Shown: positions 40,223-43,739 of the stretch, piece by piece
Position numbering within the stretch: position 1 is the stretch's first letter
How the letters are laid out: every line of letters begins with the position of its first letter
Assembly: GCA_026415395.1 (NCBI GenBank)
Contig: JAOAHD010000007.1
Span: forward strand, 620,001-684,000
Length of the DNA stretch: 64,000 nt
Origin: Candidatus Binatia bacterium
Lineage (GTDB): Bacteria; Desulfobacterota; Binatia; HRBIN30
Reading direction: 5' to 3'
Notes under the pieces: model-generated
What the model was told of the DNA's origin: nothing
Database searches by the model: none
Seen by the model: the letters and a program-made list of their open reading frames with translations, nothing else
Position numbers and translations under genes: made by a program

Positions 40223-40585
40223 CTACGTGGACGAAATCCGGTTCGAGCTGCCAAAGCCAGGGGCGAGCACCCCGAGCCATGGAACGAGCACGACGAAGCC
40301 CCCGACCAGGTCCAGCATGCCGTAAGTCGACGCAAGTTGCTTGATCGTGGCCGATCCTGTCCGGTCTCCGGCTTGGGCGATGACGTTATGAGACTTTTTC
40401 GTGGAAAGATTAACGCTCACTGTGCCCCGGCCCACGGGACAGCCGTCGATCGAGATTTGCGCACTTGGATCCGACGCCTGGATGGTGATGGTCTGGGTTC
40501 CCGGACCCATGAAGGAACATCCACTTTGTGCGAGAAACACGAAGGTCATTAAGATGGTGCTGAATTGCGTGACCCGCTTTTTCAT
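40223..40585 (-). CDS. Small lipoprotein with PEGA-like segment
   Basis: 120 residues from the ATG at 40585 (GATGAGG upstream). A lipobox at Cys23 (LAQSGC) is followed by TITIQASDPSAQISIDGCPVGRG, a PEGA-like strand pattern, then VSVNLSTKKSHNVIAQAGDRTG and a hydrophobic C-terminal stretch (MLDLVGGFVVLVPWLGVLAPG) that may insert in a membrane. This layout occurs in small 'translocated lipoprotein' families; its role is unknown. It diverges from the riboswitch-controlled M23 gene. Confidence 0.7.
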   Translation of the reverse strand: MKKRVTQFSTILMTFVFLAQSGCSFMGPGTQTITIQASDPSAQISIDGCPVGRGTVSVNLSTKKSHNVIAQAGDRTGSATIKQLASTYGMLDLVGGFVVLVPWLGVLAPGFGSSNRISST

Positions 40586-40750
40586 GGCCTCATCCCCTTT
40601 TCTAGCTGGTGCGGTTCGACACCACCCCAAGAATTTTGCGGCGCGCTGCTACGACGGGGCAAGAAAGTCAACACCAAGAGGCGGTCTCGATCCTCGCTCG
40701 CATGGGCTTGCATTGTGCGGCCAAGATAGGTACACGGCGACCTGCGACAT

Positions 40751-40880
40751 AGGCCGAGTCCCTGGAGACAGGGAGCGGGGGACCCAAGATTTTGGGGTGA
40801 ATCCCGAGGCCGAGTAGAAAACTCGACCGAAGGTAGGGTAACTCTTTGAGCCCGAACCCGGCAGCTAACCTCGTAGGCCT
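40751..40880 (+). promoter_or_regulatory. Cyclic-di-AMP riboswitch (ydaO/yuaA type)
   Basis: P1 is formed by AGGCC (40751-40755) and GGCCT (40876-40880). Between them, all the conserved blocks known from the B. subtilis ydaO leader appear in order: GCGGGGGACCCAA, TTGGGGTGAATCC, GGTAGGGTAACTC, CGAACCCGGCAGC and TAACCTCGTAGGC. The class binds c-di-AMP and usually switches off genes for cell-wall hydrolases and osmolyte or potassium transport when the ligand is high. Here it lies 117 bases before the M23 peptidase start. Confidence 0.95.
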
Positions 40881-40884
40881 TCAA

Positions 40885-40991
40885 GGAGAGGCGCCGACAA
40901 CTGGCACGGGTCACACGCCTTTGTCAGAGCCGGCAGCAAGCAGTTGTGCGGTGGGACGTGGCCTCTCCCGGTATGTCGCGGAAAGGAGAGG
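40885..40991 (+). promoter_or_regulatory. Putative expression platform of the c-di-AMP riboswitch
   Basis: The ribosome site GGAGAGG (40985-40991) can pair with CCTCTCC (40962-40968). The same CCTCTCC can instead pair with GGAGAGGC (40885-40892) just after the aptamer. GGCCT at 40960-40964 could also compete for the P1 strand. These mutually exclusive pairings suggest translational control by ribosome-site sequestration. Which state goes with bound ligand cannot be told by eye. Confidence 0.6.
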
Positions 40992-40997
40992 ACGACG

Positions 40998-42266
40998 GTG
41001 AACCACGCACGACGGAAAGGATGGCTTGCTGTACCGGTGGTGATCTCCTGTCTTCTGCTGGGAACTCCAGCAATCGCCGCGAAGCCACGCGCCGCAACCC
41101 ATCCAGCGGCAAACAAGGCGGTGAAGTTCGAACGACACGTCGTGGCGAGCGGGGAAACTCTCACCGGCATTTTGGCCGAGCGGGGTTTACAGCCAAGCGA
41201 AATTCTCCGCTGGGACGAGGCCATGCATGCCGCTGCCGGGGAGTTTCTGTTGAGCCCAGGGCACGTCTTGCGGTTGGAGTTTCGCGGCCCGACCTTGATG
41301 GGGTTGAGCTACGAAGTTGACGATTGTGTGCGGGTGACCGTGACGCGGCGCGGGAAACATCTCTTGGGAAAAACCGAGCCTTTGCAAGCGCGCGTACGTA
41401 TGGTGGCGCGTGAAGGAGTGGTGACGAAATCCTTCTCCGCGGCGGCCCGGCAGGCTGGGATTCCGGAGGCGATCCTTTCAAAAATGGCCGACGTGTTGGG
41501 TTGGGAGTTCGATTTTCGTCGCGTGCGGCCAGGCGACCGATTCCGCGTACTTTACGAGGAGCGAACCAGCGTGGATGGGCGCCCGCTATCGCCGGGCAAG
41601 CTGCTGGCCGCCGAGATTCGTAGCGGGAAGCACGTAGTGCAGGCCTTCTTTTACAACGATGGCGGGGAAGGCGTGTACGTTGACGGGAAGGGCCGTACTA
41701 TTGCGAACGGCTTCTTACGATTTCCCGTAGAATTTACCCGGATTTCCTCTCATTTCTCCCGCCAGCGATTTCACCCGGTCTTGCATGTGGCGCGCGCTCA
41801 TCACGGTGTCGACTTTGCGGCCCCGATTGGCACCCCGGTGCGTGCGGCCGGCGACGGCGTGGTTGTGTCTGCGGGGTGGCAGGGGGATTACGGCAACCAA
41901 GTGGAGATCCGGCACGAAAATGGTTGGTCGACCACGTACGCTCATCTGAAAGGGTTTGCGCCTGGCATTAAGGCCGGTCGAGCTGTGCGCCAAGGCGAAG
42001 TGATCGGGTGGGTGGGGCAAACCGGGCTGAGCACCGGCCCACACCTTCACTTTGCTCTGTTTCGTAACGGCCAGTACCAGAACCCGTTGACGGCGAAAGT
42101 GGAACTCCGCCGCGAGGTCAAAGATCGAGCGCGGTTTGCCGAAGCCAAGCGCACGCTCTTGCGGCAAATTTCTGCCCTCGTGCGCCCGGCTCCCCCGGTA
42201 GCGTCAACCATGGTGGCGGCGTTGCCCACATCGCTGCGCCCAGCGATGGTGTCGCTGCAACCTTGA
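40998..42266 (+). CDS. M23 peptidoglycan endopeptidase (MepM-like), riboswitch-controlled
   Basis: 422 residues from the GTG at 40998, after GAAAGGAGAGG. A signal peptide ends near PAIAA. Residues ~45-95 are a LysM/OapA-like domain (HVVASGETLTGILAERGL), ~125-200 an M23-associated domain (ARQAGIPEAILSKMADVLGW, RVRPGDRFRVLYEE), and ~255-365 the LytM/M23 zinc peptidase: HHGVDFAAPIGTPV (H...D ligands) and TGPHLHF (HxH). It should cut peptide cross-links to allow wall growth. Control by c-di-AMP agrees with the wall-homeostasis role of that messenger. Confidence 0.92.
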   Translation: MNHARRKGWLAVPVVISCLLLGTPAIAAKPRAATHPAANKAVKFERHVVASGETLTGILAERGLQPSEILRWDEAMHAAAGEFLLSPGHVLRLEFRGPTLMGLSYEVDDCVRVTVTRRGKHLLGKTEPLQARVRMVAREGVVTKSFSAAARQAGIPEAILSKMADVLGWEFDFRRVRPGDRFRVLYEERTSVDGRPLSPGKLLAAEIRSGKHVVQAFFYNDGGEGVYVDGKGRTIANGFLRFPVEFTRISSHFSRQRFHPVLHVARAHHGVDFAAPIGTPVRAAGDGVVVSAGWQGDYGNQVEIRHENGWSTTYAHLKGFAPGIKAGRAVRQGEVIGWVGQTGLSTGPHLHFALFRNGQYQNPLTAKVELRREVKDRARFAEAKRTLLRQISALVRPAPPVASTMVAALPTSLRPAMVSLQP

Positions 42267-42299: not shown

Positions 42300-43739
42300 T
42301 TACAGCACGTCTCGCGGTTCGTGTCGTTTGGCCGCCGGGTACTTCTCCAACAGTTGCCTTGCTGCCTTGAGGAAAGCGTCTGTTTGATGTCGCGCGGCAC
42401 CAGTGAGTTGCTCGACCTCGCTCAGAATCCGCTCGATGGTGGCGCGGTCGAGACGTAATTCGGATTGAGCGGCGAGATAACCCGCGAAGTCCCACCGGCT
42501 ATGCCCTTCGCGCAGGGCAGTAGCCGCTGCCTGTGCCGCTTGTTGAATGAGGGCATGGGCGCGCTCGCGGCCGGCGCCGCGACGCACTGCTTCCATGAGC
42601 AGCGTCGTCGTCGCCAAAAACGGTGCGTACCGTTTCCATTCCGTGGCAACGACTGCAGGGAACAAGTGGAAATTCTTCAACACAGCGAGAAAGGTCTCCA
42701 ACAAACCATCGATCGCAAAAAACACCCCTGGCAATGCCACTCGCCGCACGACCGAACACGAAACGTCGCCTTCGTTCCACTGATCGCCGGCCAGGCCCTC
42801 GAGCATCATTGTGTAGCCGCGCAGCACGAGGTGGAGGCCATTGAGGCGCTCGCAACTGCGCGCGTTCATCTTGTGTGGCATGGCCGAGGAGCCAACTTGG
42901 CCAGGGGCAAAACCTTCCGAGGCGAGTTCGGCCCCGGCCATCAGGCGTAAAGTTTTCGCAAAGCTGCTCGGTGCCGAGCCGAGCTGCACCAAGATGCCGG
43001 CCAAAGCGGCATCCAGGCTGCGCGGGTAGACTTGCCCGACTGCCCCTAGCAACCGCTGGAATCCGAGAAAGCGGAGCACTGCGTGTTCGAGGCATTCGAC
43101 TTTCGCTGTGTCCCCGTGGAAGAGAGTCAGCAAATCGAGTTGCGTGCCCACAGCCCCTTTAAGCCCCCGCAGCGGGTAGTGCTCGATCCACCACTCCAAG
43201 TGGCCGATGGCGAGGAGCAACTCCTCGCCGTACATGGCGAGCCGACGGCCAAAGGTTGTGGGCTGCGCAGGCACGTTATGGGTGCGGGCGGGGAGCACGG
43301 TGTCTCGGTACTCTTCGGCTCGTTTGGCGAGCCATCCCCCCGCCGCCACCGCCTTTTCGAGCACCAGGGTTGCCGCGCGGAAAATCTGTAACTGCTCGAC
43401 ATTTTCCGTGAGGTCGCGACTGGTCATTCCCTTATGGATGTGCTCGTAGCCCGCAAGAGCGCAAAACTCCTCGATGCGCGCTTTGACGTCGTGCTTGGTC
43501 ACCCGCTCGCGGCGGCGAATGCTGTCGAGGTCGACTTGTTCCTTCACACGCTCGTAAGCGGCAATGGCTTCGTCAGGAATGTCCAGGCCAAGTTCTTTTT
43601 GCGCCTTCAAAATGGCGATCCAGAGCTCTCGCTCCAGAATGACTTTGCCCCGTGGCGACCAAATGGCCGTCATCTCCGGGCTCGCGTAACGTTCGGCCAA
43701 GACGTCTGCTGGCGGCAGGCCAGGTTCACCGTTGGACAT
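42300..43739 (-). CDS. purB: Adenylosuccinate lyase
   Basis: 479 residues, the usual size. Fumarase/aspartase superfamily landmarks: KGMTSRDLTENVEQ, the catalytic-loop signature SSAMPHKMNA and RTHNVPAQPTTFGRR. It acts twice in purine synthesis, releasing fumarate from SAICAR and from adenylosuccinate. It converges with the M23 gene, 33 bases apart, and is not near other pur genes. Confidence 0.94.
   Translation of the reverse strand: MSNGEPGLPPADVLAERYASPEMTAIWSPRGKVILERELWIAILKAQKELGLDIPDEAIAAYERVKEQVDLDSIRRRERVTKHDVKARIEEFCALAGYEHIHKGMTSRDLTENVEQLQIFRAATLVLEKAVAAGGWLAKRAEEYRDTVLPARTHNVPAQPTTFGRRLAMYGEELLLAIGHLEWWIEHYPLRGLKGAVGTQLDLLTLFHGDTAKVECLEHAVLRFLGFQRLLGAVGQVYPRSLDAALAGILVQLGSAPSSFAKTLRLMAGAELASEGFAPGQVGSSAMPHKMNARSCERLNGLHLVLRGYTMMLEGLAGDQWNEGDVSCSVVRRVALPGVFFAIDGLLETFLAVLKNFHLFPAVVATEWKRYAPFLATTTLLMEAVRRGAGRERAHALIQQAAQAAATALREGHSRWDFAGYLAAQSELRLDRATIERILSEVEQLTGAARHQTDAFLKAARQLLEKYPAAKRHEPRDVL

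Follow-up and report, generated by a model that had tools for sequence, protein, structure and literature searches.

The window, i.e., the whole 64-kb stretch of DNA analyzed in this work, contains a single Rfam match at gathering score in cmscan, a c-di-AMP (ydaO/yuaA) riboswitch aptamer at positions 40742 to 40895 of the plus strand (RF00379; 94.4 bits; E value, 5.4e-21). The match covers the full model (positions 1 to 134 of 134) above the gathering score of 38, with zero non-standard pairs marked. A ydaO aptamer with its P1 helix had been proposed at this locus in an initial annotation of the sequence, along with a covariance-model search as the check. That search matched the element end to end, and the cmscan structure line and the sequence place P1 in two GGCC strands at 40752 to 40755 and 40876 to 40879 (+). 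By its sequence, the element is thus a genuine c-di-AMP riboswitch, ordinary as a sensor, and would be expected to bind c-di-AMP. As the same annotation had it, the element precedes an M23 hydrolase gene; it lies directly 5′ of this metallopeptidase gene, which has a GTG start codon (40998 to 42266, +). The gene product is Csd3-like (Peptidase_M23, E value of 6.8e-34; Csd3_N2, E value of 3.1e-16) and has a hydrophobic stretch at its N terminus, and its nearest named record comes from Bacterium HR30 (82% identity over the best segment). All 15 of the 200-base blocks of L006 that were tested (a locus of genome G071, from the genus of the window) recur in the HR30 locus; NCBI files HR30 under unclassified Bacteria, and it is a member of Binatia (Candidatus Binatota). 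An adenylosuccinate lyase-like gene (Lyase_1, ADSL_C) at 42303 to 43739 on the minus strand is convergent with the M23 gene. No sigma-70-type promoter was found between 40580 and 41060.

A diadenylate cyclase, whose absence had been named beforehand as refuting, is encoded in the genome. The one DAC match (E value, 4.8e-43) is of the CdaA type (CdaA_N plus DAC) and has a YbbR gene as its neighbor; by eye, an FtsH-like sequence precedes it and the start of a GlmM-like sequence follows. The search for other riboswitch copies yielded a second RF00379 match (91.5 bits), located before a DPBB_1/RlpA-like gene. LptD was also found, indicating the outer membrane that had been assumed for this organism. 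A search of the genome limited to PgpH-type c-di-AMP phosphodiesterases (PF07698) found none.

Within the class to which the window belongs, the aptamer occurs in 15 of 148 genomes and a DAC gene in 119, including 14 of the 15 that bear the riboswitch; the one riboswitch-bearing genome without a DAC match (G095, locus L017) is an assembly that is 81% complete. M23 relatives were present in 148 of 148 genomes, showing that the gene family is universal in the class and the riboswitch is not. In the phylum sample, 52 of 395 genomes carry the riboswitch (51 of them over the cut-off). Many, though not all, of the downstream frames at the 28 listed loci outside the class look transporter-like by eye, and two of these frames, when tested, proved to be a K_trans protein and an amino-acid permease. 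The riboswitch is therefore ordinary outside Firmicutes, and c-di-AMP synthesis is already placed in Deltaproteobacteria, Cyanobacteria and others in the available portions of published reviews (PMC7288161, PMC5575661). The suggestion of c-di-AMP signaling outside the best-studied Firmicutes is supported by the presence of both cyclase and riboswitch, but it is not new.

In RNAs of the RF00379 class, a loop pairs with the strand that follows P1. The solved ydaO RNA contains a pseudoknot, and in its printed sequence CUCCUUCG, part of a loop, is the complement of CGAAGGAG, which lies close to the 3′ end (PMC5393176, accessible text). In the window, a loop strand, CUCUUU (40842 to 40847, +), can pair with an SD-like 3′ strand, AAGGAG (40883 to 40888, +), through five Watson-Crick pairs and one G-U pair. 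We compared the pairing of each locus's own loop and own strand with that of partners swapped between loci by permutation. The class and the phylum sample together provided 82 distinct RF00379 matches, of which 80 were read, one partial and one sub-threshold match being left out; 76 of the 80 entered the swap test, as three had no anchor motif and one was cut by a contig end. Loops fit the pseudoknot strand of their own locus better than swapped ones: none of 5000 permutations was as good for the 76 loci, and none of 20000 for 48 distinct loci or, likewise, for 25 loci representing one per family.

The translational switch sketched in the initial annotation involves three strands, all of which lie where it had placed them. 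The Shine-Dalgarno (SD) sequence GGAGAGG (40985 to 40991, +) stands 6 nt 5′ of the GTG codon. The anti-SD strand, GCCUCUCC (40961 to 40968, +), contains CCTCTCC at 40962 to 40968, and a decoy (anti-anti-SD) strand, GGAGAGGC, occupies 40885 to 40892 (+), about 100 nt 5′ of the true SD. Two alternative partners for the anti-SD strand were indeed found, as all eight bases of GCCTCTCC (40961 to 40968) can pair with the decoy (8/8) and the last seven with the SD (7/7). The decoy and the pseudoknot 3′ strand have positions 40885 to 40888 in common, i.e., only 4 of the 8 decoy bases. Binding of the ligand would therefore compete with capture of the anti-SD strand for the same bases, and these shared bases provide a physical link between ligand and expression platform that was missing from the earlier proposal. 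Judged from the sequence, the upstream strand is thus part of the sensor and not a free linker. A further helix, or clamp, is predicted between 40943 to 40950 (+) and 41006 to 41013 (+; codons 3 to 6), with 8/8 pairs, including one G-U. The predicted clamp keeps 8/8 pairs, with different wobble pairs, in L020 and in L006 (genome G071), a locus from the genus of the window, and might extend the closed SD hairpin into the coding region.

All 12 leaders found in the order of the window, nine of family f1 and three of family f4, were inspected for the same arrangement. In 11 of them, representing five genera, one strand pairs with both decoy and SD. The failing leader is L014, whose strand pairs with the decoy and does not pass the triple test in its pairing with the SD. 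Anti-SD and SD are separated by a loop of 16 to 25 bases in the eight leaders measured. Most informative are five RlpA-type leaders, which come from three genera (typed by Pfam for L002 and by eye for L005, L019, L010, and L011) and have GGAGGGG as their SD. If the anti-SD strand served the SD alone, CCCCUCC would be expected in these leaders; the strand found instead is CCUCUCC, which is perfectly complementary to the decoy and forms one G-U pair with the SD. These leaders look as if the decoy pairing were under selection.

Compensatory change of the three strands in relatives had been suggested as a check. Across the phylum, pairing of decoy and downstream strands in contiguous helices was not better within loci, with 12163 of 20000 permutations being as good for the 48 distinct loci and 5174 of 20000 for the 25. 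Duplex energies that allow for loops gave a weak signal (107 of 5000 permutations as good for 76 loci and 297 of 5000 for 25 families). Phylum-wide covariation of the decoy was rejected as a general rule; of the two pairings, only that of loop and pseudoknot strand passes the permutation tests. The lack of a within-locus preference of the decoy across the phylum implies that the platform of the window is not phylum-wide; the recurrence of the three strands stands at the level of the order.

The leaders were folded using ViennaRNA with the pseudoknot outside the model, and the pseudoknot energy is absent from all the following values. In transcripts that end before the SD, pairing of decoy and anti-SD dominates in 12 of 12 leaders when the region after P1 is folded alone, with a decoy index of at least 0.84 at four lengths. 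When the aptamer sequence is included, the index of such transcripts is at least 0.86 in eight of the 12, the lower values being those of L014, L021, L010, and L008. Once both the aptamer and the start codon are part of the fold, decoy pairing dominates in only 3/12 leaders (L001, L006, and L009), with an index of 0.42 in L014 and small values in the remaining ones. In L009, the decoy pairing persists after coding bases have been added. When the window leader is folded with the aptamer and ends at the start codon, it is open (decoy index of 1.08; SD 95% unpaired). With 27 coding bases added, it is closed (SD 5% unpaired; anti-SD:SD pairing of 0.95), and the closed state thus wins in this leader only after early coding bases join the fold. 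In leaders folded without their aptamer, the open form can be imposed at a cost of 0 to 8 kcal/mol; for the window, this cost is 3.1 kcal/mol.

At equilibrium, blocking the pseudoknot strand in folds of the post-P1 region and early codons shifts access to the SD by at most 0.02 in each of the 12 leaders, since the closed hairpin is favored in any case. A simple two-state equilibrium switch was rejected on this basis. As equilibrium, once early codons are present, favors the closed SD regardless of the decoy, switching would have to be co-transcriptional, and the folds are compatible with a possible decision of this kind.

We consider that the element most likely acts as a translational OFF switch, with c-di-AMP as its ligand and an exported peptidoglycan hydrolase as its target, an interpretation to which we give somewhat better than even probability. 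Both the order of events and the OFF direction are what we infer from the arrangement of the strands. Without ligand, the SD-like strand at 40885 to 40892 would capture the anti-SD strand at 40961 to 40968 before the true SD has been transcribed, so that the SD at 40985 to 40991 would emerge free and ribosomes would load. With c-di-AMP bound, the loop at 40842 to 40847 would hold 40883 to 40888 in the pseudoknot, leaving the decoy largely occupied, and the anti-SD strand would then close on the SD. The clamp into codons 3 to 6 may stabilize this closed form.

For all three f4 leaders (L008, L009, and L021), the predicted folds place a hairpin and a U-rich tract immediately 3′ of the aptamer; in L021, the terminator-like hairpin is seen in a longer fold, and the 60-base fold differs. 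In two of the three, the pseudoknot strand has a complement of 14 to 15 nt (G-U pairs included) that lies in the terminator arm and the U tract. These features favor a c-di-AMP riboswitch that controls transcription, through Rho-dependent termination or an unrecognized pause or terminator, with an SD hairpin that is constant and only lowers translation, as would also fit the closure of the SD at equilibrium whatever the decoy does. We regard this explanation of the window as unlikely, though it carries appreciable weight, because a consensus scan returned 0 intrinsic-terminator-like sites in the window leader (40580 to 41060) and the anti-SD strand of the RlpA-type leaders matches the decoy better than it matches the SD. 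The initial annotation had called for translational rather than terminator control. The lack of a terminator-like site and the recurrence in 11 of 12 leaders agree with it, the folding analyses do not provide the equilibrium switch, and the proposed translational platform is well supported.

Farther downstream of their terminator-like hairpin, the f4 leaders carry an anti-SD/SD pair as well, and these elements possibly represent two control layers. In family f7, six of eight leaders (L007, L012, L013, L015, L016, and L022) have an RlpA-like frame starting from an ATG that follows the GGAG within the pseudoknot strand by 7 to 8 nt; this strand reads AAGGAG, or GAGGAG in L013. Given this spacing, the f7 pseudoknot strand is probably the true SD of rlpA. 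DPBB_1 was confirmed in both frames checked (L007 and L013) among the six. Between the aptamer end and approximately position +60, a stable, terminator-like hairpin and, after it, a mostly U-rich stretch lie inside the frame, in signal-peptide codons encoding AGGAIPR, and 21 positions of the 22-base hairpin are invariant across the six RlpA-like leaders. The frames of the remaining f7 leaders, L018 and L023, are not RlpA-like. Pseudoknot strand and arm read AGGATC and GATCCT in L018 versus GGGATC and GATCCC in L023, which is from the same genus, a difference that reads as one compensatory event costing the hairpin one pair.

At L043, L046, L056, L057, L065 (f23), and L071 (f26), a GGAGG-containing, purine-rich pseudoknot strand has an ATG within a few bases. 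The frames that start there, of 34 to 196 codons, are distinct from the long downstream frame and may encode leader peptides whose SD is part of the pseudoknot. At L078, L079, and L080 (f66), a long block, near-identical among the three genomes, lies about 10 to 80 bases past a weaker aptamer match (61 to 64 bits). A second structured RNA behind these three aptamers was considered and rejected, RF00379 alone giving cmscan matches at gathering score. A tentative scheme, to which we give slightly less than even credence, is that the pseudoknot strand is an SD look-alike that has been put to different uses within a single bacterial class, as the ribosome binding site (RBS) of rlpA in f7, as an antiterminator ahead of a second, translational lock in f4, and as a decoy SD that holds the anti-SD strand during transcription in f1, the family of the window, with conversion from terminator to translational control proceeding in steps and the decision being taken once, co-transcriptionally.

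How often the downstream strands could arise by chance was estimated by shuffling the sequence that separates the outer strands 1000 times, with dinucleotide composition preserved. For the window locus, 26 of the 1000 shuffles gave the triple pattern; across the 12 leaders of the order, the number ranged from 2 to 156 per 1000, making single leaders weak evidence. As a background, 40 SD-preceded ORF starts of at least 120 codons were listed mechanically in the window. A complement to the SD of at least 7 bp was present just upstream of two of the 40, one of which is that of the M23 gene, and upstream of one of two ORF starts in a further 15-kb stretch of the genome; the anti-SD strand by itself is thus only moderately unusual. 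Such frequencies speak for the strands being a chance or generic RBS hairpin, with the aptamer acting via mRNA stability or direct occlusion. This is improbable in our estimation, as the strands are kept in 11 of the 12 leaders and in five genera despite a loop that varies by several bases, and recurrence in relatives is stronger evidence than the anti-SD strand of the window alone. An ON switch, with c-di-AMP raising translation of the hydrolase, is very improbable, since pseudoknot and decoy helix both use 40885 to 40888, so that the ligand should free the anti-SD strand for the SD, since the class members described in the available text of PMC9960051 and PMC6488665 are OFF switches, and since no point in its support was found.

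The class of riboswitch, its presence outside Firmicutes, and translational control all have precedents. Novelty lies in the lineage, in strands that are longer and recur among leaders, and in the proposed role of the pseudoknot strand as switching element. A literature search combining Binatota and riboswitch found no paper, and the accessible portions of the literature surveyed held no description of this platform, which is not proof of absence. The locus provides a model, testable at the level of single bases, of how a c-di-AMP riboswitch could control translation, a mode of regulation for which we found one experimental case in the literature. It also links c-di-AMP to peptidoglycan hydrolases (M23 and RlpA) in a poorly known outer-membrane lineage. 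As terminator-containing, mixed, and translational platforms are found behind the same aptamer, change of the output layer with a constant sensor is open to study.

Like other members of the RF00379 class (ydaO/yuaA; kimA of Bacillus subtilis), the window element has a full-model aptamer with the pseudoknot loop and strand and a downstream gene that serves cell-wall or ion homeostasis, and is expected to be an OFF switch. The Bacillus type, as described in the accessible sections of PMC9960051 and PMC6488665, ends in a ligand-promoted terminator, whereas the consensus scan found no terminator-like site in the window leader. The location of a ydaO-type element before a cell-wall hydrolase gene is shared with rpfA of Streptomyces and other hydrolase riboswitches (PMC10117811, available text). 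For rpfA, which belongs to another phylum, the same text reports premature transcription termination, and the available part of PMC9960051 states that a canonical terminator was not seen.

In the accessible part of PMC10907184, ydaO is grouped with preQ1-III among docking riboswitches, in which the ligand promotes RBS occlusion. The f7 leaders resemble these RBS-occluding elements in that the pseudoknot strand lies at SD distance from the ATG of rlpA. In contrast, the pseudoknot strand of the window would act as a decoy about 100 nt upstream of the true SD.

A close counterpart, judged from its description, is nlpC of Corynebacterium glutamicum, reported in 2023 to be preceded by a c-di-AMP riboswitch with no canonical terminator and likely translational control, with reporter tests (PMC9960051, sections available). 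In that proposal, CTCC has two GGAG partners, an upstream one when ligand is absent and the one in the RBS when ligand is present. Both systems have a cell-wall peptidase gene downstream and follow the same switching logic. The nlpC pairing is hypothetical and involves 4 nt, whereas the pairing in the window comprises 7 to 8 bp, occurs in 11 of the 12 leaders of the order, and has an upstream strand that overlaps the aptamer pseudoknot.
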